DNA of 64,000 nt from assembly GCA_913056455.1 (NCBI GenBank), contig CAJXMJ010000001.1, forward strand, positions 1,116,001 to 1,180,000, in the 5' to 3' direction. A model generated the notes under the pieces. The model searched no databases, was not told the DNA's origin, and worked only from the letters and a program-made list of their open reading frames with translations. Below are positions 12,786 through 25,120 of this stretch, in pieces (position 1 is the stretch's first letter; each line of letters opens with the position of its first letter). A program made the translations under genes and the position numbers. The DNA is from an uncultured Fodinibius sp. (GTDB lineage Bacteria; Bacteroidota; Rhodothermia; Balneolales; Balneolaceae).

Positions 12786-15755
12786 ATGATACCAATCAAA
12801 AAGCTACTCATTACGTCGTGCTTGATGCTGGGGCTTACGCTTCCCGGATTAGCACAGAGTTCCGTATCGGGAACCGTAACAGACGCTCAAAGCGGGGAAA
12901 CCCTGCCCGGCGTTAATATTACTGTTAAAAATATGCCCGAACGCGGAACTGCAACTACTGCAGACGGAACCTACTCACTAAATGTACCATCGTTGCAAGA
13001 TACGCTGGTCTTTTCTTTTGTAGGATTCGTTAAGCAAGAAGTCCCAATCAATGGACGCACAACCATTGATGTTGCTCTTTCACCTGATGTACAACAACTT
13101 GAAGACGTTGTGGTTATCGGTTACGGTACACAGGAAGTAGACGATAATACCGGATCGGTTACCTCTGTAAATTCTGAAGATTTTAACGAAGGAGCGATCA
13201 CATCTCCAGAGGAGTTATTTCAAGGTAAAGCAGCTGGTGTTACTGTTACATCAAATGACGGGGCCCCCGGTAGCGGAGCTACTATTCGAATTCGTGGTGG
13301 ATCTTCCCTGTCGGCCAGCAATGATCCCCTATTTGTAATTGACGGGGTACCGCTCGATGGAAACGCCGTTTCTGGTATGAGAAATCCACTCAACACGATT
13401 AATCCAAATGATATTGAGTCGATCTCTATTCTGAAGGATGCCTCTGCAACAGCCATTTATGGTTCTCGTGCTTCAAACGGTGTTGTTCTAATTACTACCA
13501 AGCGAGGCACCGCCAATCAGCCATTGGAGGTTGCTTATACCGGCAAGTTTTCTTTCCAAACAAAGACCAAAGAGTTAGATGTTCTTTCTCCCAACATGTT
13601 TCGATTTGTGGTAGAAAGTGAGCTGCCTCCTTCTGCTTTTGATCTTACCAGCGATGGAAATACCGACTGGCAAAGCCAAATATATAAAAATGCTTACAGT
13701 CAACAGCATAACATAAGTCTCACAGGGGCCTTTAAGAGTGTTCCTTATCGCGTATCCTTAGGATTTAATGGCAACAACGGGATACTGAAAACATCCAACA
13801 TGGATCGTTTTACCGGTTCTATTGCGGTAAATCCTACATTCTTTGATGACAACCTTAAAGTTGACCTTAATATTAAGGCCTCCCAGGTTGACAACCGTTT
13901 TGCAAATCGCGGTGCTATCGGATCAGCTGTAACCTATGATCCGACCAAACCAGTTCATGCAGAAAACGATTTTGGAAATTACTATGCTTGGACTGACCAA
14001 AATGGCAACCCCATTTCCATTGCAACTTCCAACCCAGTGGCGCTGTTGCAACAAACTATCGATGAGTCAACCGTCTACCGGTCTATCGGTAATGCCAAAT
14101 TTGATTACACACTCCCCTTCGAAGAAAACATAACAGCTACACTGAATCTGGGTTATGACTATTCTGATGTAGGTGATGGTAATTATAGGGTCACTGACGA
14201 AGCCGCATTTGAATATGTTGGACCGGGAGAGCCAAATGGTACTCGAACTACATACGACCAACGTAAAGAAAATGAGCTGCTCGACTTCTATCTTAATTAT
14301 AAAAAAGAAGTAGAGTCAATAAACAGTGACTTTGATGTTACTGCCGGTTATTCCTGGGAGCATCACTACGAGGAAAGCTCTAACTACGTTACCAACTATA
14401 ATGTACAAGATACACTGGCCGTTGACGAAGACACCGACTTTAAAACCGAACACTATATTGTCTCGTTCTTCGGTCGTCTTAACTATACCTTTAATGATAA
14501 GTACTTGCTGACAGCTACCTTACGTCAAGACGGTACTTCCCGTTTTGCTGAAGATGAACGTTGGGGACTGTTTCCATCTGCTGCGCTGGCATGGAAAATC
14601 CACGAAGAACCATTCATGGGTGGCTTTGAGGATCTCTCGCAGTTAAAGCTGCGATTAGGTTATGGTATTACCGGTCAGCAGCGTATTGATCAGGGGGACT
14701 ATCCTTACCTGGCACGATATACCGCCAGTCAGCCTACAGCCCGATACCTATTCGGTAACGAGTTTATAACGACGCTTCGCCCGGAAGGATACAACGCTAA
14801 TCTGAAATGGGAGGAAACAACCACCTATAACATTGCGTTGGATTACGGCTTCTTCAACGATAGACTGTTCGGTTCTTTGGAAGCTTACCACCGGGTAACG
14901 GATGACCTGCTAAATGTGGTTCCCGTACCGGCCGGTACCAACTTCACAAATCGGATACTATCTAATATTGGCACGCTGGAAGTTCAGGGACTTGAAGCTA
15001 ACATAACAGGACGCATAATCTCTACCGAAGATACGTACCTCGAAGTTGGCTTTAATGCTACACATAATGTGAATGAAGTTACCAAACTCACCAATGTAGA
15101 CTCCGAAGACTATATCGGCGTAGAAACCGGTGGAATCTCTGGTGGTGTAGGTAATACCATTCAAATACACAGTGAGGGACATCCCCGAAGTTCGTTCTAT
15201 GTATATGAACAGGTGTATGACGAAAATGGAAACCCCTTAGACGGTGTTTATGTTGATCGTAATGGAGACGGACAAATAACGGCCGATGACAAATACCGGT
15301 ATGAAGATCCTGCTCCCGATTTTACCTTTGGGCTTTCATCCAAGTTTGAATACAAAAACTGGGATGCATCATTTTCTGCCCGGGCGAATGTCGGTAATTA
15401 CGTTTATAACAATGTAGCATCTAACCACACGGTTTATGAATTCATGTATAACAGTACCGGCTTCCTTAACAATGCAATGAATGCTATTAATGACTATGGC
15501 TTCAGCGGTGCTCAATACGAATCTGATCACTACGTTGAGAATGCTTCCTTCCTGCGCATGGATAACATGTCGGTAGGATATACGTTCAACAATCTATTCG
15601 ATCAGGTTCAATCGCTGCGTGTCTCCGGTACCGTACAAAATGCCTTTGTAATCACCAATTACAGCGGGCTGGATCCCGAGGTTTTCAGTGGAATTGATAA
15701 TGAAGTATATCCACGTCCTCGCACCTTTATCCTTGGATTAAGCCTCAACTTCTAA
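12786..15755 (+). CDS. SusC-like TonB-dependent outer-membrane transporter
   Basis: 989 residues. Order: signal peptide (1-23, ending GLAQ), carboxypeptidase-regulatory-like beta-sandwich (about 25-108, SGTVTDAQSGETLPGVNI), a TonB-box-like segment VVVIGYGTQ, the plug domain (about 115-225, with IRIRGGSSL and PLFVIDGVPL), and a 22-strand type barrel ending PRTFILGLSLNF. SusC proteins form the channel through which oligosaccharides captured by SusD enter the periplasm with TonB energy. The substrate is inferred to be alpha-glucan from the GH13/GH65 neighbours. It starts the plus arm of the locus, 25 bp before susD, and is preceded by two LacI-type operators. Confidence 0.95.
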   Translation: MIPIKKLLITSCLMLGLTLPGLAQSSVSGTVTDAQSGETLPGVNITVKNMPERGTATTADGTYSLNVPSLQDTLVFSFVGFVKQEVPINGRTTIDVALSPDVQQLEDVVVIGYGTQEVDDNTGSVTSVNSEDFNEGAITSPEELFQGKAAGVTVTSNDGAPGSGATIRIRGGSSLSASNDPLFVIDGVPLDGNAVSGMRNPLNTINPNDIESISILKDASATAIYGSRASNGVVLITTKRGTANQPLEVAYTGKFSFQTKTKELDVLSPNMFRFVVESELPPSAFDLTSDGNTDWQSQIYKNAYSQQHNISLTGAFKSVPYRVSLGFNGNNGILKTSNMDRFTGSIAVNPTFFDDNLKVDLNIKASQVDNRFANRGAIGSAVTYDPTKPVHAENDFGNYYAWTDQNGNPISIATSNPVALLQQTIDESTVYRSIGNAKFDYTLPFEENITATLNLGYDYSDVGDGNYRVTDEAAFEYVGPGEPNGTRTTYDQRKENELLDFYLNYKKEVESINSDFDVTAGYSWEHHYEESSNYVTNYNVQDTLAVDEDTDFKTEHYIVSFFGRLNYTFNDKYLLTATLRQDGTSRFAEDERWGLFPSAALAWKIHEEPFMGGFEDLSQLKLRLGYGITGQQRIDQGDYPYLARYTASQPTARYLFGNEFITTLRPEGYNANLKWEETTTYNIALDYGFFNDRLFGSLEAYHRVTDDLLNVVPVPAGTNFTNRILSNIGTLEVQGLEANITGRIISTEDTYLEVGFNATHNVNEVTKLTNVDSEDYIGVETGGISGGVGNTIQIHSEGHPRSSFYVYEQVYDENGNPLDGVYVDRNGDGQITADDKYRYEDPAPDFTFGLSSKFEYKNWDASFSARANVGNYVYNNVASNHTVYEFMYNSTGFLNNAMNAINDYGFSGAQYESDHYVENASFLRMDNMSVGYTFNNLFDQVQSLRVSGTVQNAFVITNYSGLDPEVFSGIDNEVYPRPRTFILGLSLNF

Positions 15756-15780: not shown

Positions 15781-17682
15781 ATGTTTAACACAAAACTTAA
15801 AATTGTCTCGGTAGCATTAATTGCCATTATGGCTATTACTGCTACTTCATGTACGGACGATCTCAATACCAGTCCGATTGATGATGATGTACAAACATCA
15901 GAGTCTGTTTATACGAGTCCGCAAAACTATCAGCAGGTACTTGCCAAACTATATGCAGGCTTTGCCACTACCGGACAGCAAGGGCCCGCAGGTGATCCTG
16001 ATATTCAGGGTATTGACGAAGGCTTCTCAAGCTATCTTCGTCAGCTGTGGGTTGCGCAAGTAATCTCAACAGACGAAGCAGTTGTTGGATGGAATGACGA
16101 CGGCCTCCCAGAATACAATTACCAGGCCTGGAACGCTTCCAACGACTTTGTGATGGCTCTGTACAGCCGTATCTACTATCAAATTGCCCTGGCTAACGAG
16201 TTTATACGCAATGCCCAAGGCAATGAAAACCAACAGGTGCAGCAGTATCTTGCCGAGGCTCGCTTCCTGCGTGCCCTCAGCTACTGGCATGCCCTTGATA
16301 TGTTTGGCGGCAATGTACCTTTTGTAACTGAAGAAGACCCTGTTGGAGCCTACCAACCGGAACCCATTGGAGCCCAGGAACTCTTCAATTATATTGAGAG
16401 TGAACTCACCGACATTGAAAGTGAAATGCCCGCACCCGGTGATAACGAATACGGCAGAGCCGACCAGGGTGCCGTTTGGACACTTCTGACAAAACTCTAT
16501 CTCAATGCTGAAGTGTACATAGACCAGGCTCGTTATGGAGATGCTGTCACCTATGCCAATAACGTCATTGAACAGGGCGGTTATACGCTTGAAGAGGATT
16601 ACGGCGACCTATTCCGCGCTGACAATCATACAGCCAATGGACTTATTTTCTCTATTCCTTTTGATGGGGTAAATACCCAAACCTATGGTGGAACAACATT
16701 TATTCATCATGCAGCCATTGGCGGTGATATGAACCCCGCTAACTTCGGTACCTCTGAAGCCTGGGGCGGTCATCGTACGACACCAGAATTTGTAGATATT
16801 TTGGAATATTCTGGATACCAAACCCCTAATCCTTCCGGCAATGATGAAATATATGTCCCAGGTGGTTACCAAGCTTCCAGTGGGTATGGCAGTGACTGGA
16901 CTCCAGCAGATGCTCCTGCTCTTGTCTCTGAAAACAATAATGATGTGTATACTGGACTTGTTTATATAGGTGTTTCTAATGCTGAACTAAAGTTTACACC
17001 CGATCAAAACTGGAATTCTAATTACGGTGATAACGGTGCTGATGGAACCCTGGAAGCTAATGGGGCAAATATTGCTACTGAACGCCTAGGACTTCATAGA
17101 GTTACAGTTGATCTAAATAACAATACCTATGAAATTGAATATGCAGACAGTCGTAACTCATTATTCAAAGATGGCCAACAAAAAGAAATACCATCGGTTG
17201 ATGTATTAGCTGAATTCACCAACGGTTATGGCCTTACCAAGTGGAAAAACTTGACGTCAAACGGACAAACTGGATCAGATCAGGTATTCGTTGATATCGA
17301 CTTTCCGATGTTCCGTCTTGCCGATGTTTACTTAATGTACGCTGAAGCAACACTTCGGGGCAATTCTGGTGATCCTAACAAAGCAGTAAATCTCATTAAC
17401 GAACTTAGGGATCGCGCTCACGGAGACGGTGTCCTTAATATTGATCAGTCTGACCTGACATTAGACCTCATACTGGACGAACGTGGACGTGAGTTATATT
17501 GGGAAGCACACCGAAGAACCGACTTGCGACGTTTTAATCAATTCACCGGTGATCAATATATATGGTCTATGAAAGGCCAAGATGCAGAAGGAAGGGCTAC
17601 CGATGAGAAATATGAAATATTCCCTATCCCGGCATCGGATATCAACTCGAATCTAAATCTGGAACAGAATCCGGGTTATTAA
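15781..17682 (+). CDS. SusD-like glycan-binding lipoprotein with inserted SusE-type module
   Basis: 633 residues with a lipobox near residue 24 (ATSC). The SusD N-terminal TPR-rich half includes LAEARFLRALSYWHAL. The C-terminal RagB/SusD half includes FRLADVYLMYAEA and ERGRELYWEAHRRTDLRRF. Between them, at about residues 357-455 (nt ~16849-17150), is a segment beginning IYVPGGYQASSG that aligns end to end with residues of the SusE protein encoded next door (IYVPGGYQSASN). About half the positions are identical by eye, including KFTP, NW, GADGTLE and VDLN. The insertion probably adds a starch-binding surface to SusD. Extra length against a typical ~530-residue SusD fits this. It is cotranscribed with susC and susE. 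Confidence 0.93.
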   Translation: MFNTKLKIVSVALIAIMAITATSCTDDLNTSPIDDDVQTSESVYTSPQNYQQVLAKLYAGFATTGQQGPAGDPDIQGIDEGFSSYLRQLWVAQVISTDEAVVGWNDDGLPEYNYQAWNASNDFVMALYSRIYYQIALANEFIRNAQGNENQQVQQYLAEARFLRALSYWHALDMFGGNVPFVTEEDPVGAYQPEPIGAQELFNYIESELTDIESEMPAPGDNEYGRADQGAVWTLLTKLYLNAEVYIDQARYGDAVTYANNVIEQGGYTLEEDYGDLFRADNHTANGLIFSIPFDGVNTQTYGGTTFIHHAAIGGDMNPANFGTSEAWGGHRTTPEFVDILEYSGYQTPNPSGNDEIYVPGGYQASSGYGSDWTPADAPALVSENNNDVYTGLVYIGVSNAELKFTPDQNWNSNYGDNGADGTLEANGANIATERLGLHRVTVDLNNNTYEIEYADSRNSLFKDGQQKEIPSVDVLAEFTNGYGLTKWKNLTSNGQTGSDQVFVDIDFPMFRLADVYLMYAEATLRGNSGDPNKAVNLINELRDRAHGDGVLNIDQSDLTLDLILDERGRELYWEAHRRTDLRRFNQFTGDQYIWSMKGQDAEGRATDEKYEIFPIPASDINSNLNLEQNPGY

Positions 17683-17724: not shown

Positions 17725-18780
17725 ATGAAGAAACTAAGCCTATTATCAATTCTACTTGCAGGGCTCCTTGTCTTCTCCTCTTGTGATAAAGAGGAGCTGG
17801 GACCCGTAGCAAATACTTCTGAGCCGGGTGCTCCGGCTATGACTTCACCTTCATCCGGTGAAAGCTTTACCTTAACAGAAGGAGAAGCAGACAGTGTACT
17901 AACAACTATTGAATGGTCAAAGCCTGACTTCGGTTTTCCATCTGCACCGACATACAGTATAGAATTCACCGAAACTGGTAGTGATGGTTTTGTTGAATTC
18001 GCTCAAACCCAGAGTACTTCTTATGAAGTTATTACTAAGGATATCAATAACGCACTGATTTCCGAAGAGTTTGTCACAGGACAAGAGCATTCTATTGATC
18101 TACGTATTGTGGCTTCTCTCCCAGATGAATCTGTAGGAGCTGCACATTCTGAACCAGTAACAATCTCCATAACTCCTTATTTCGCAGAAGTTACCTATCC
18201 GGAAATTTACGTACCAGGTGGTTATCAATCAGCAAGTAATGAAGGTGGCGACTGGGATCCGGGAACAGCCCCTGCTCTTTACTCTGTAAATGATGACGAT
18301 ACCTATGAAGGGTATGTATACATGGCAAATGCCAATAACCAGTTCAAGTTTACCCCTGAACGTAATTGGGATAATGATTGGGGGGATACCGGAGCAGACG
18401 GCACCTTAGAATCTGGTGGAGACAACATTGCATTGTCTGATGCTGGCTATTATAAAATGAATGTAGATCTCAATGAGATGACCTACGAAACCCTTAAGAC
18501 TACTTGGGGAGTTGTCGGTGATGCAACAGGTAGCTGGGATGTGGACCAAGATATGACCTATGATCCACAAGAGAAGGTTTGGACCATTACGCTTGATCTT
18601 TCAGCAGGTGAAATGAAGTTCCGTGCTAATGATGCTTGGAATCTAGATTATGGAGATGACGAAGGTGACGGCAGACTTGAGCAAGGTGGAGGAAACATTG
18701 CTGTAGATCAAGCTGGTAACTACACCGTTATCCTTGATTTGAGTGAAGCGCCTTATACGTACGAGCTCAATCAAAACTAA
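17725..18780 (+). CDS. SusE/SusF-like starch-binding outer-membrane lipoprotein
   Basis: 351 residues with a lipobox (LVFSSC at about 15-20). An N-terminal SusE Ig-like domain (about 30-150, with TIEWSKPDFGFPSAPTYSIEF) is followed by two related glycan-binding modules: about 163-265 (IYVPGGYQ to VDLNEMTYE) and about 268-351 (WGVVGDATGSWD to LDLSEAPYTYEL). SusE/F proteins hold starch at the cell surface beside the SusCD transporter. The first module is a close relative of the one inserted in SusD. The gene lies 42 bp after susD and ends at a strong terminator 26 bp downstream. Confidence 0.9.
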   Translation: MKKLSLLSILLAGLLVFSSCDKEELGPVANTSEPGAPAMTSPSSGESFTLTEGEADSVLTTIEWSKPDFGFPSAPTYSIEFTETGSDGFVEFAQTQSTSYEVITKDINNALISEEFVTGQEHSIDLRIVASLPDESVGAAHSEPVTISITPYFAEVTYPEIYVPGGYQSASNEGGDWDPGTAPALYSVNDDDTYEGYVYMANANNQFKFTPERNWDNDWGDTGADGTLESGGDNIALSDAGYYKMNVDLNEMTYETLKTTWGVVGDATGSWDVDQDMTYDPQEKVWTITLDLSAGEMKFRANDAWNLDYGDDEGDGRLEQGGGNIAVDQAGNYTVILDLSEAPYTYELNQN

Positions 18781-18806: not shown

Positions 18807-18839
18807 GCCCACTCATCCAGATGATGGGTGGGCTTTTTT
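18807..18839 (+). terminator. Rho-independent terminator after susE
   Basis: GCCCACTCATC pairs with GATGGGTGGGC (one G-U pair) around a 5-nt loop, then TTTTTT. It separates susCDE from the amylase gene, suggesting that downstream expression depends on read-through or its own promoter. Confidence 0.88.
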
Positions 18840-18854
18840 ATTAACTCCTTTTTT

Positions 18855-21800
18855 ATGCGACGCATAGCTACGACACTCCTCTTTTTACTCGGGCTTTTGA
18901 TCACAGTCCAGGCACAAGTTACAACCGATCCTGAATTCCCTGTTTCCGGGGAATCGGTAACCATTACCTTTGATGCTACCGAAGGCAACACTGAGCTGGA
19001 AGGATATACGGGAGATGTCTATGCCCATACCGGCGTTATTACCGACCAAAGCACTGACGGTTCTGACTGGAAATATGTAGTCGCCGATTGGGGCGAAAAT
19101 ATCCCCAAAGCCAAAATGGAGCGCGATCCGAACAATCCCAATCTTTATACGTTGGAGATTTCTCCCTCCATTCGAGAATTTTACAATGTGCCTGAAAGTG
19201 AAACCATTGATCAGATGGCCTTTGTGTTTCGAAGTAGCAACGGCTCACAACAAACCAATGATCTATTCGCCGAAGTCTATCAAAACGAATTTAATGTAAG
19301 TATAACCTCCCCCACCGATGACCCCGCATTTACCTCAAAAAACAGTACCGTTACCATCGAGGGAATTGCATCTACCAACACCGGTAACGAACAGCTTACG
19401 CTTTTTGTAGACAATCAGCAGGTTGCACAGGTCAATAGTAATTCTATTCAGTATGATTATCCTGCTCAAAATGCCGGTAACTTTGAAGTCCGCCTTGAAG
19501 GAACCGACGGTACCAACACTGATCAAGTAACGCAACAACTGGTCGTCAACCCTGAAATCACCCAACAAGCCCGTCCCCAGGGACTGCAAGACGGCATCAC
19601 CTATGTCGATGCCAACACAGTGCGATTATCTCTTTTTGCGCCTAATAAAGAATTTGTCTACGTGATTGGAGACTTTACGAATTGGGAAATAGATCCCAAT
19701 TACTTTATGAATAAAGAGGTTGTGAATGCCGACAGCAGCTATTACTGGATCGAAATTTCCGGCCTTACACCCGGCGAAGAGTATGGATTTCAATATTTTG
19801 TGGACGGAGAAGTACGAGTGGCCGATCCCTACTCCGAAAAAGTCTTGCAACCGGATGACCAGTATATCAGCAATGCCACCTATCCCAATTTAAAGCCTTA
19901 TCCCAGTGACCAAACAGACTTTACCGCAGGTGTGCTACAACCCGGGAAAACAGAGTACCAGTGGCAGCACCAAAGTTATGACCGCCCCAATAAAGAAGAC
20001 CTAGTTGTCTACGAATTATTGGTTCGAGACTTTGTCGAAAATCACGATTTCCAAACCCTTACCGATACATTGGACTATCTTGACCGCCTTGGCGTGAATG
20101 CCATAGAACTGATGCCGGTCATGGAGTTTGAAGGAAACATCAGCTGGGGATATAATTCAGCCTTCCTGTTTGCTACCGACAAGTATTATGGTCCTGCCGA
20201 TGATCTTAAAAAATTCATAGATGAAGCCCACTCCCGCGGCATGGTGGTCATTTTAGATATTGTGTTAAACCATGTATATGGACAATCTCCACTGGTTCGG
20301 CTGTGGAATGAAGGAGATTACGGGCAGCCTACTACCGAGAACCCTTATCTAAATGTCCAATCTCCAAATCAAACGTATTCTTGGGGATATGATTTTAATC
20401 ATGAATCCCAAGCCACAAAATACTATGTAGACCGCGTAACCCGCTACTGGCTCGAAGAGTTCAATGCTGACGGCTATCGCTTCGATTTTACCAAGGGTTT
20501 TACGCAAAATTCCGGCGATGGCTGGGCCCGGGATGAAGATCGCATTCGATTGCTAAAGCGAATGGCTAACCAACAGTGGGCGGTTGATGATTCTTCCTAT
20601 GTAATTCTTGAGCACCTCACGGAAAACAGCGAAGAACAGGAATTAGCTGATTATGGCATGCTGCTTTGGGGCATCATGCATGGTAATTACAAACAGGCTT
20701 CCATGGGATACGAGGATGGAAGTAATTTCTCTGGTGTTTATCATGAGAACCGAAATTGGAGTAAGCCTCATTTGGTTGGTTATATGGAAAGCCACGATGA
20801 GCAGCGTATTATGTATGAAAACCTTAATTACGGTAACAGCGGTAGCAACAGTTCCTATGATATAAAAGAGCTAAATACAGCGCTTAATCGAATTAAACAG
20901 TCAGCTGCTTTCTTTTTCACGGTACCCGGTCCTAAAATGTTTTGGCAGTTTGGTGAACTCGGATATGATTTTAGTATCAATCGATGTGAAGATGGTTCTA
21001 TTAACAATAGCTGCAGAACTGCACCTAAGCCCATCAGATGGGATTACTATCAGGATGAAGAACGCAAAAAGCTTTATGATTCCTATAAAGCCCTTATTCG
21101 CCTTCGTAATTCCCATGAAGCCTTTACTTCGACTACCTCCAATGTTTCGATGGACGTAAGTAACGTCACTAAACGCATTACGATTAGTCATCCTGAGTTA
21201 AAAGTTACAATAGCCGGCAATTTTGGCGTTACAGACACCGAAATGCAGCCGAAATTCTCACAAACCGGGGACTGGTACGATTTCTTCTCCGGGGATACCC
21301 TATCGATCAACAATACCGATACAACCATTGCGATGAATGCCGGTGAATTTCATATCTACACTACTAAAAAGTTTGAAGCCCCTGCTGGAGATCTCCTCCG
21401 CTTTGTCCCCACACAGATTAATCTTGATATATCAAAGACATTTAATGGAGCCTCCTCCCCTCAGGACTATCAATTGATTGCTTTGCCCGGCCAATCAAAT
21501 GAAGCACTTAAAGATGTTTTGAATGGTGATCCAAGTGTTGACTGGCAAGCGTTCTGGGATAACGGAACAAGCGAAAATTATATGATGAAGTACGACGGTA
21601 GTTCTACCTTTAATACAAATCCCGGTAAAGGGTTTTGGGTCACAAGTAAAGAAGACTTTACCTATACTCAGACTGTTCCTACTGTTGAACTTAGTGAGAA
21701 TAACCAAGCCTCAATTCCACTCCACGATGGTTGGAATATTATATCGAATCCACTGCATACTGATGTGGCATGGAGCCAAGTATCGTCAGCAAATGACGCT

Positions 21801-22682
21801 AATCTACAGCCGTTATGGAGTTTTGACGGATCCTGGAGCCAGGCTACTGATTTTGTTTCGGCCCGTACAGGTAAAGCCTTTTATTTCTTAAATGACCAGG
21901 GATTAAATGAACTGCTCATACCCTATGAAGAGACTTCAGCCAAGAAAAAAACTGAAGTTACCCAAACAGAAGTTCAACTCATTACACGAATAGATGGAAA
22001 ACAAACATCTTCGAGCCGTCTCACTTTTGTAGACTCTGAACAACCCCCTGCTGATGCTATAGCTCCGCCTTCGAAGTTTGAAGGTACTTCTTTACGGTTC
22101 AAAGCTGATACCAAAGATCATAAATCCTCTCGCACAAGCTCATTAGCCCATATTTATCGCAATAAAAACAAGCAGGAACATCGATTAAAGGTCACACTGT
22201 CGGCTACACCGAAAGAACCGGTCACTATTAGTGCTGAAGGATGGGATAACAATCCGAGCATACAAATGGCCCTGTTGGATACTGATTCCGGACGCAAATA
22301 TGATTTAAGTAATAAAAATGAAATAACCATTATCCCAGACAACGAAAAAACCTCTATGCTACTGGTGATCGGAGATACACGGTATATCAATGAGCAACAA
22401 GAGGAGCTCCTGCCCCAAAAAATTAGTGTAAATCCTAATTATCCTAATCCATTTAATCCATCCACGACCCTGCGATTTTCACTTCCAGAACAAGCAGAAG
22501 TTCATGTGCAGGTATACAATATTTTGGGACAGCAGGTCAGTACGTTAATTAATAATGAAACCCGACAAGCCGGAGTTCACACTATAACATTTGATGGGAG
22601 CCGGCGGGCCAGTGGCTTGTATTTTGCTGTTTTTGAGATCGGCGACCAGCGGTTCGTCCAAAAAATGACGTTAATCAAATAG
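18855..22682 (+). CDS. Secreted multidomain GH13 alpha-amylase with T9SS sorting domain
   Basis: 1275 residues from the ATG at 18855; an earlier in-frame ATG at 18828 lies inside the susE terminator and is rejected. Order: signal peptide (ends TVQAQ), N-terminal starch-binding/Ig-like domains (about 20-230), CBM48-like domain (about 240-345, VRLSLFAPNKEFVYVIGDF), GH13 barrel (about 375-760) with Asp544 in GYRFDFTKG, Glu586 in VILEHL and Asp648 in MESHDEQR, a T9SS-associated beta region with WNIISNP, then a C-terminal sorting domain (about 1190-1275, NYPNPFNPSTTLRFSLPE to FVQKMTLIK). It should cut alpha-glucans outside the cell or on its surface, feeding SusCDE. Confidence 0.93.
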   Translation: MRRIATTLLFLLGLLITVQAQVTTDPEFPVSGESVTITFDATEGNTELEGYTGDVYAHTGVITDQSTDGSDWKYVVADWGENIPKAKMERDPNNPNLYTLEISPSIREFYNVPESETIDQMAFVFRSSNGSQQTNDLFAEVYQNEFNVSITSPTDDPAFTSKNSTVTIEGIASTNTGNEQLTLFVDNQQVAQVNSNSIQYDYPAQNAGNFEVRLEGTDGTNTDQVTQQLVVNPEITQQARPQGLQDGITYVDANTVRLSLFAPNKEFVYVIGDFTNWEIDPNYFMNKEVVNADSSYYWIEISGLTPGEEYGFQYFVDGEVRVADPYSEKVLQPDDQYISNATYPNLKPYPSDQTDFTAGVLQPGKTEYQWQHQSYDRPNKEDLVVYELLVRDFVENHDFQTLTDTLDYLDRLGVNAIELMPVMEFEGNISWGYNSAFLFATDKYYGPADDLKKFIDEAHSRGMVVILDIVLNHVYGQSPLVRLWNEGDYGQPTTENPYLNVQSPNQTYSWGYDFNHESQATKYYVDRVTRYWLEEFNADGYRFDFTKGFTQNSGDGWARDEDRIRLLKRMANQQWAVDDSSYVILEHLTENSEEQELADYGMLLWGIMHGNYKQASMGYEDGSNFSGVYHENRNWSKPHLVGYMESHDEQRIMYENLNYGNSGSNSSYDIKELNTALNRIKQSAAFFFTVPGPKMFWQFGELGYDFSINRCEDGSINNSCRTAPKPIRWDYYQDEERKKLYDSYKALIRLRNSHEAFTSTTSNVSMDVSNVTKRITISHPELKVTIAGNFGVTDTEMQPKFSQTGDWYDFFSGDTLSINNTDTTIAMNAGEFHIYTTKKFEAPAGDLLRFVPTQINLDISKTFNGASSPQDYQLIALPGQSNEALKDVLNGDPSVDWQAFWDNGTSENYMMKYDGSSTFNTNPGKGFWVTSKEDFTYTQTVPTVELSENNQASIPLHDGWNIISNPLHTDVAWSQVSSANDANLQPLWSFDGSWSQATDFVSARTGKAFYFLNDQGLNELLIPYEETSAKKKTEVTQTEVQLITRIDGKQTSSSRLTFVDSEQPPADAIAPPSKFEGTSLRFKADTKDHKSSRTSSLAHIYRNKNKQEHRLKVTLSATPKEPVTISAEGWDNNPSIQMALLDTDSGRKYDLSNKNEITIIPDNEKTSMLLVIGDTRYINEQQEELLPQKISVNPNYPNPFNPSTTLRFSLPEQAEVHVQVYNILGQQVSTLINNETRQAGVHTITFDGSRRASGLYFAVFEIGDQRFVQKMTLIK

Positions 22683-23257: not shown

Positions 23258-25120
23258 ATGAAAACCAATTTACGTTGTTTACTTCTCTCATCTATCTTCG
23301 CCTTCTTTCTTTTCGGATCCGTTAGTGCCCAGGATTACGCCATTGAGCGCGTAGAGCCTCTCCACTGGTGGGTTGGAATGAAGAATCCCGAACTCCAGGT
23401 TATGATCTATGGTGATGATATTGGCAACCTCTCTCCTGCTATAGACTATGATGGGGTGGAAATCAAACGTATCCAAAAAGTTGAAAACGACAACTATCTG
23501 TTTGTCTATTTGGATATCTCAAAAGATACAGATCCCGGGAAGTTTGATATTATACTTTCAAGAGATGGAGATCAGGAATTAAAGTACACTTATGAACTTA
23601 AAGAACGCGAGCAAAATTCTGCTCAACGAGAAGGCTTTAACTCCTCAGATGTTATGTATCTCATTACTCCCGATCGCTTTGCCAATGGAAATCCCGGCAA
23701 TGACAGCGTAGCTGGATATGCTGATAGCCTCGACAGAGATGATGACTACGGGCGTCACGGTGGAGATATCCAAGGAATTATCGATCACCTTGATTACATT
23801 GATGAGATGGGTTTTACGGCTATCTGGCTCAATCCCGTAAAAGAAAATGCGATGGAAAGCTCCTCGTACCACGGTTATGCCACTACGGATTATTACAAGG
23901 TGGATCCGCGATACGGAAGTAATCAACTCTATAAAAAACTGAGTGAGGAAGCTGAGAAACGAGGCATTAAGCTCATCATGGACATGATCATGAACCATTC
24001 GGGTTCTAACCATTGGTGGATGGATGATCTGCCCACAGACGATTGGGTACATTATCCTGATAATTATCAGCAGACCAATCACCGCCGTACAACGCTGCAT
24101 GATCCCTATGCTGCTGATATCGACAAGAAAAGAATGACGGACGGATGGTTTGTAAAGTCTATGCCGGATCTAAATCAAGACAATCCCCTGCTGGCCGACT
24201 ACCTCATTTACAATAGTTTGTGGTGGATTGAATATGCCGGATTACGAGGCATTCGTCACGATACTCATCCCTACGCCGGACAGGAATTTATGGCCGAATG
24301 GACATGCCGTATCATGGAAGAATATCCCAACTTTAATATTGTGGGCGAAGAATGGTCGGTTGATCCGTTGGTATTATCAAAATGGCAGCGTGGCAATGAT
24401 AAGCCCGATAATTTCAGTTCATGCCTACCCAGCTTAATGGATTTTCCCATTCAAACTACCCTTGTCGATGCTCTCACAAGTGAAGAAAGCTGGGGCAGCG
24501 GCTTCGTTGATCTCTATGAGACATTAAGCTTCGATTATGCTTATCCCAACCCCTTAAACATGGTGATCTTTCCCGATAATCACGATATGGATCGTTTTTA
24601 TCGACAGGTAAATCAGGACTTCGACCTGTATAAAATGGGATTGGCCTATATAATGACCATGCGCGGTATTCCCCAATTTTATTACGGTACCGAGCTGTTG
24701 ATGAGCAACGAAAAAGGACATGATCACGGACAGATTCGGGAAGATTTCCCCGGCGGATGGGAAGGTGACACCAAAAATGGCTTTACCGGGAAAGGGTTAT
24801 CCGACAAACAGAAAGAAGCCCAGACATTTGTAAAAAAGTTGGTCAACTGGCGGAAAGATAATCCCGTTATTCATAGCGGTGAACTGATGCAGTACGCTCC
24901 CAAACATGATGGCGTTTATGTATACTTCCGATACAACGAACAAAAATCAGTGATGGTAGCTTTCAATAAGAGCAAAGAGTCTATATCGTTAAATAAGGAT
25001 TACTATTACGAACGGTTAGATGGCTTTACCACAGGAACTGATATTATAACAAATAAAACATATCAACTGAATGACCTTAAAATTCCGTCACGATCGGTAT
25101 TAATTCTGGAGTTGGAGTAA
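23258..25120 (+). CDS. Periplasmic GH13 neopullulanase/cyclomaltodextrinase (SusA-like)
   Basis: 620 residues. Signal peptide (ends GSVSAQ), an N-terminal cyclomaltodextrinase-type beta domain (about 25-115, VEPLHWWVGMKNPELQVMIYG), then a GH13 barrel with YLITPDRFANGNP, MDMIMNHSG, predicted nucleophile Asp335 (GIRHDTHPYAG), acid Glu364 (NIVGEEWS) and Asp443 (PDNHDMDRF). The VEPxxWWxGM opening is typical of periplasmic SusA-type enzymes. It would trim imported maltodextrins. It is the last gene of the plus arm, 132 bp after the FN3 lipoprotein, and ends before a bidirectional terminator. Confidence 0.93.
   Translation: MKTNLRCLLLSSIFAFFLFGSVSAQDYAIERVEPLHWWVGMKNPELQVMIYGDDIGNLSPAIDYDGVEIKRIQKVENDNYLFVYLDISKDTDPGKFDIILSRDGDQELKYTYELKEREQNSAQREGFNSSDVMYLITPDRFANGNPGNDSVAGYADSLDRDDDYGRHGGDIQGIIDHLDYIDEMGFTAIWLNPVKENAMESSSYHGYATTDYYKVDPRYGSNQLYKKLSEEAEKRGIKLIMDMIMNHSGSNHWWMDDLPTDDWVHYPDNYQQTNHRRTTLHDPYAADIDKKRMTDGWFVKSMPDLNQDNPLLADYLIYNSLWWIEYAGLRGIRHDTHPYAGQEFMAEWTCRIMEEYPNFNIVGEEWSVDPLVLSKWQRGNDKPDNFSSCLPSLMDFPIQTTLVDALTSEESWGSGFVDLYETLSFDYAYPNPLNMVIFPDNHDMDRFYRQVNQDFDLYKMGLAYIMTMRGIPQFYYGTELLMSNEKGHDHGQIREDFPGGWEGDTKNGFTGKGLSDKQKEAQTFVKKLVNWRKDNPVIHSGELMQYAPKHDGVYVYFRYNEQKSVMVAFNKSKESISLNKDYYYERLDGFTTGTDIITNKTYQLNDLKIPSRSVLILELE

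Follow-up and report, generated by a model that had tools for sequence, protein, structure and literature searches.

A SusE-type X25-like module inserted in a loop of the SusD lid protein of a Balneolaceae alpha-glucan locus

The SusD protein of an uncultured Fodinibius sp. (Balneolaceae) carries, within an otherwise complete SusD scaffold, a complete module of the X25-like type found in SusE. With a probability of about 0.7, we read this protein as the lid of an alpha-glucan import locus in which an insert derived from SusE module 1 would serve as an additional, predicted starch-holding site. The window, i.e. the whole stretch of 64,000 nucleotides analysed here, contains an alpha-glucan (starch-type) locus in the order SusC, SusD, SusE, followed by two GH13 enzymes (Table 1). 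On the opposite strand, beyond the GH13 pair, Pfam recognises an MFS transporter, another GH13 and a GH65.

Table 1. Features of the alpha-glucan locus in the window, and loci elsewhere that encode the five-module protein.
Feature	Position	Strand	Basis
SusC-type TonB-dependent receptor, transporter partner of SusD	12786..15755	+	Pfam Plug, TonB barrel, CarbopepD_reg_2
susD with inserted module, 633 aa lipoprotein	15781..17682	+	Pfam SusD_RagB 130.9 bits; 3jys Z 51.1
SusD scaffold, N-terminal part, residues 1-343, containing the starch-site counterparts R87, W104, D106, Y302 and W328	15781..16809	+	Alignment to 3ck7/3jys; residue mapping
Linker leading into SusD insert, residues 344-353	16810..16839	+	Alignment with uninserted relatives
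SusD insert, SusE/F-type (X25-like) module, residues 354-455	16840..17145	+	BLASTP to SusE, PF22058, pLDDT, conservation
SusD scaffold, C-terminal part, residues 456-633	17146..17679	+	Second alignment block to 3jys and 3ck7
susE, 351 aa lipoprotein	17725..18780	+	Pfam SusE and SusF_SusE
SusE X25-like module 1, closest paralogue of the insert in the genome	18190..18504	+	BLASTP, genome search, module tree
SusE X25-like module 2	18490..18774	+	Sequence match and module profile
GH13 alpha-amylase with CBM48 and C-terminal secretion tail	18828..22682	+	Pfam
GH13 cyclomaltodextrinase/neopullulanase-type enzyme	23258..25120	+	Pfam
Five-module protein, one member scanned (L078)	L078:1727-3499	-	Type IX secretion tail at end
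Further loci with five-module protein	L080, L115, L117, L125, L130, L134-L138, L149		

An earlier note, made from the sequence alone, had proposed a SusE-type module within SusD at 16849-17150, with about half of its residues identical to the first SusE module and the DNA also alike. Both points are borne out, with the boundaries now set at 16840-17145. In BLASTP, SusD residues 356-451 align to SusE residues 160-255 without a gap, 53 of 96 residues being identical (55%) and 70 of 96 similar (112 bits, E=1e-31), and at the DNA level the insert shares 63% identity with SusE module 1 across 290 bases. SusE module 2 gives a second, weaker match (38% over 60 amino acids, E=4e-10), and a search of the whole genome returned these three places only: the SusD insert, SusE module 1 and SusE module 2. 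The X25 profile (X25_BaPul_like, PF22058) scores the insert at 29.5 bits, above its cutoff of 27, and the SusF_SusE profile (PF16411) at 24.2 bits, below its cutoff of 27.5; the inserted SusDs of relatives reach 37.3, 28.9, 55.4 and 63.8 bits with the latter profile. The insert architecture is thus already visible to databases, since Pfam recognises SusF_SusE modules in some such SusD proteins. Misassembly or a fused reading frame can be dismissed because the same architecture recurs across many assemblies.

The scaffold around the insert is complete. It scores 130.9 bits with the SusD_RagB profile (PF07980, cutoff 23.1). NF033071, the exception-level NCBIfam model of B. theta type SusD, gives 430 bits and the uninserted relative L073 likewise falls short with 458 bits; we do not file the protein under this narrow model because its score lies under the curated cutoff of 725. 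The lipoprotein cysteine C24 is invariant in an alignment of 88 SusDs. The closest solved SusD, 3jys, which has no insert, aligns to residues 42-351 and 453-633, and its own residues 314 and 316 meet at the insertion point. Uninserted SusDs of the same genus (G014, G016, G019) have a sequence like ...FVDKFDTDNDGRAMFYT... at this site, and the inserted ones are about 110 residues longer. The graft site is one fixed loop, approximately 20 residues past W328, where B. theta SusD has about 37 additional residues and no X25 module. The starch-site residues of B. theta SusD, which we take to be R81, W98, N101, Y296 and W320, map to R87, W104, D106, Y302 and W328 here; R87, W104, Y302 and W328 are retained, N101 is swapped for D106, and R87, W104 and W328 are invariant across the 88 SusDs.

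An AlphaFold model was computed from 88 sequences (mean pLDDT 92.4, pTM 0.89), replacing a first model from 24 sequences that was poor in the scaffold (pLDDT 64.8). In it the insert forms an all-beta block predicted with confidence (pLDDT 92-98), the remainder being a normal SusD, and a structure search superimposes the scaffold on 3jys with a Z score of 51.1 (466 of 479 residues, 1.8 Å). This search, run with the full SusD model in which the insert was folded within the whole protein, lists SusD scaffolds only and no SusE/SusF fold match. The insert is predicted to form a separate beta-sandwich that stands on the SusD lid. The earlier reading of a module grafted into a complete SusD is therefore supported by the BLASTP match, the 3jys alignment, the model and the fold match of the scaffold. 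When SusD homologues were searched, the segment was missing from most and so is not a normal SusD part; its absence from 3jys, from B. theta SusD and from uninserted same-genus relatives excludes it as an ordinary element of the SusD fold.

Among 92 Balneolaceae genomes, 25 have a match to the module in SusD or SusE. In a spread sample from across the phylum, 98 of 395 genomes had a close SusD (E<=1e-60), and X25-type inserts were found in 9 of 13 of these from the same family and in 5 of 85 elsewhere; long SusDs without a module match were also checked for this count. A scan of named genomes found many more inserted SusDs, a number biased towards inserted proteins because the query itself bears the insert. 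According to the module profile, starch-type SusDs of Balneolota and Bacteroidota carry 0, 1, 2 or, once, 3 modules in the same loop. SusDs of Balneolaceae have a single A-type module and those of Flavobacteriaceae a single B-like one. The A plus B pair occurs in Saprospiraceae, Prolixibacteraceae, Lentimicrobiaceae and further Bacteroidales, and the set of three in one bin of Mariniphaga (L133). The Balneolaceae insert is common to four genera and is lost or absent in several relatives, four SusDs of the same family being without it.

SusE adjoins SusD in all 11 insert-bearing Balneolaceae loci. In four of the family's genomes (L063, L064, L065, L069) the SusD insert is retained and the downstream SusE has diverged (about 31-34% identical overall); there, insert and SusE have therefore separated. 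Of 38 double-module loci, 27 have an adjacent SusE, and 10 of the remaining loci have a five-module protein nearby instead. Loci of this Saprospiraceae type often lack an adjacent SusE and encode a protein of 590-640 amino acids with five X25-like modules, usually divergent and upstream of susC. Other kinds of insert occur as well. Two SusDs of group f28, L079 (6817-8655, minus strand) and L165 (G370), have an unrelated insert, some 88 residues long, in that same loop, without a Pfam match in the case of L079, and a Chitinophagales SusD (L094:5971-7968, plus strand) has a different insert of about 120 residues there, again without a Pfam match. The loop therefore tolerates various domains. A Spirosoma-type SusD (L129:5983-7827, plus strand) has an additional stretch elsewhere, following its GYAISKYRNI segment.

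Where the insert came from was addressed with module trees, which have about 100 columns. In the careful A-type tree (62 rows), the Balneolaceae inserts form one clade (support 100/98) nested among the first modules of Balneolaceae SusE proteins (97/84 and 97/92), and a 104-row quick tree rooted with B modules gives the same grouping. The inserted and SusE modules are thus linked, and the suggestion that the module was copied from the neighbouring gene is supported, since it nests in the branch formed by module 1 of SusE proteins from this family; the copying, however, was neither recent nor strain-local. A very recent copy of the adjacent gene is excluded by the 63% DNA identity and by the four genera that share the insert. 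On a scaffold tree computed with the insert excluded, there are at least 16 changes in the number of modules, and inserted and uninserted members are intermixed within the Balneolaceae clade, for which the simplest reading would be one gain followed by several losses.

Elsewhere, the types and numbers of modules at the same loop show, although on short alignments, that more than one graft would be required. On the 62-row tree, placing every inserted A-type module in a single clade is rejected (p-AU 0.0045). Flavobacterial inserts cluster with SusE modules from Flavobacteriaceae and Cytophagia (96/82) and separately from the double-insert B modules. On these two grounds the loop seems to be a site of repeated grafting. 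We considered instead a single ancient insertion of an A+B pair, with later loss of A in some lineages and of B in others and with exchange between susD and the adjacent susE. This would explain why the same loop is used everywhere and why the A-then-B order of double inserts matches that of SusE; the one-clade test for B-type inserts is borderline (p-AU 0.053), and in one Bacteroidales bin (L127) the A modules of SusD and SusE are sisters (100/99), as expected from exchange or recent copying. The rejection of one A-type clade (not rejected on the larger quick tree, p-AU 0.119) and the closeness of flavobacterial inserts to their own SusE modules stand against it, and we regard it as doubtful; all these p-values are only indicative, because the groups were named once the first trees were known. 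At 71% identity, the L127 modules suggest in themselves that susD and susE have exchanged this sequence or that it was recently copied from one to the other. On balance we lean towards repeated grafting: a SusD surface loop into which one, two or three X25-like modules would have been taken repeatedly and independently from SusE across Balneolota and Bacteroidota, giving polysaccharide-gripping lids, with some Saprospiraceae pairing a double-module lid with the five-module protein, the adjacent SusE being gone.

We next consider what the insert may do. W373 and W411 are present in all 11 Balneolaceae inserts, spanning four genera, and the same two tryptophans in 10 of 10 SusE modules; PGGYQ and G..W motifs are also common to SusD inserts and SusE. 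When the insert is matched to SusF (4fe9) by profile, its first tryptophan aligns with tryptophans 177 and 396, which we take to be binding residues, and W287 lies nearby in the middle module. K404 of the insert is not conserved in every relative. Between nearest relatives the insert is 62% identical vs 83% for the scaffold and so changes faster; its dN of 0.30 against a dS of about 3 gives a dN/dS well under 1, a rough value since dS is saturated, and points to purifying selection. The X25 modules of SusE and SusF bind maltooligosaccharides, with a Kd of about 300 uM for SusF modules, and a maltooligosaccharide-binding site with two tryptophans has been described for X25 (PMC9112005). In the levan system, SusD lids move and separate surface proteins act as glycan grapplers (PMC7618045). 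A starch-binding role of the insert is likely, as predicted from its conserved residues and gene neighbourhood. A lid with its own grappler would be the likeliest reading, since the tryptophans are kept, X25 modules bind maltooligosaccharides and SusD lids move; binding and geometry are both predicted.

The insert might alternatively be a structural or docking element that sets the position of the lid relative to SusE, the amylase or SusC without binding glycan itself. X25 modules may lose binding when alone, as seen for single modules excised from R. bromii proteins (PMC9112005), the insert evolves faster than the scaffold, and the inserts of some other lineages (L079, L165, L094) are not X25-like. 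A docking element would, however, leave unexplained the invariance of both tryptophans across the 11 inserts and the occurrence of PGGYQ and G..W motifs in inserts and SusE alike, and we judge it unlikely. That the insert is largely neutral and kept by inertia, as its scattered occurrence (16 or more changes of state on the scaffold tree) and the otherwise normal starch loci of uninserted same-genus relatives could suggest, is highly improbable given the low, if rough, dN/dS, the invariant aromatic positions and the repeated gain of SusE-family modules at one loop by separate lineages.

We thus return to the lid with an additional starch-holding site. Module 1 of the neighbouring SusE would have been copied into one SusD loop in a Balneolaceae ancestor. 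The insert would bind alpha-1,4-glucan via W373 and W411 and, in concert with SusE and the usual SusD site, may raise avidity for long or branched chains, which would be held at the SusC mouth during lid opening and closing. It would add to SusE rather than replace it, because SusE is still encoded next door.

Several known systems resemble this arrangement in part. B. theta SusD (3ck7-3ckc) and Bacteroides vulgatus 3jys share the scaffold, the lipoprotein nature, the SusC neighbour and R81, W98, Y296 and W320, but neither has the X25 module. The X25-like modules of SusE and SusF (PF16411/PF22058; SusF 4fe9) share sequence family, the two conserved tryptophans and the locus, but are strung on a separate lipoprotein, whereas here one module lies within a loop of the lid protein. 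The SusG amylase carries a CBM58 inserted in a loop and is likewise a Sus protein with a starch-binding module so placed, but the host is an enzyme and the CBM family a different one. The 'looped' and 'open' alpha-glucan SusD groups of marine Flavobacteriia also vary in a loop near the SusD binding site; this loop has 17 residues and is not a domain, and we do not equate it with the graft loop (PMC11093988). A search of open-licence papers, without supplements, found no description of a SusD with inserted SusE modules.

Whether SusE/SusF and the SusCD transporter form a stable complex or a transient assembly is debated (PMC7618045). A natural fusion of a SusE module to the lid fixes the place of that module and its 1:1 ratio, and same-genus relatives with and without the insert provide a ready comparison. 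The finding is also a warning that domain-level annotation of SusD genes overlooks such hybrids.
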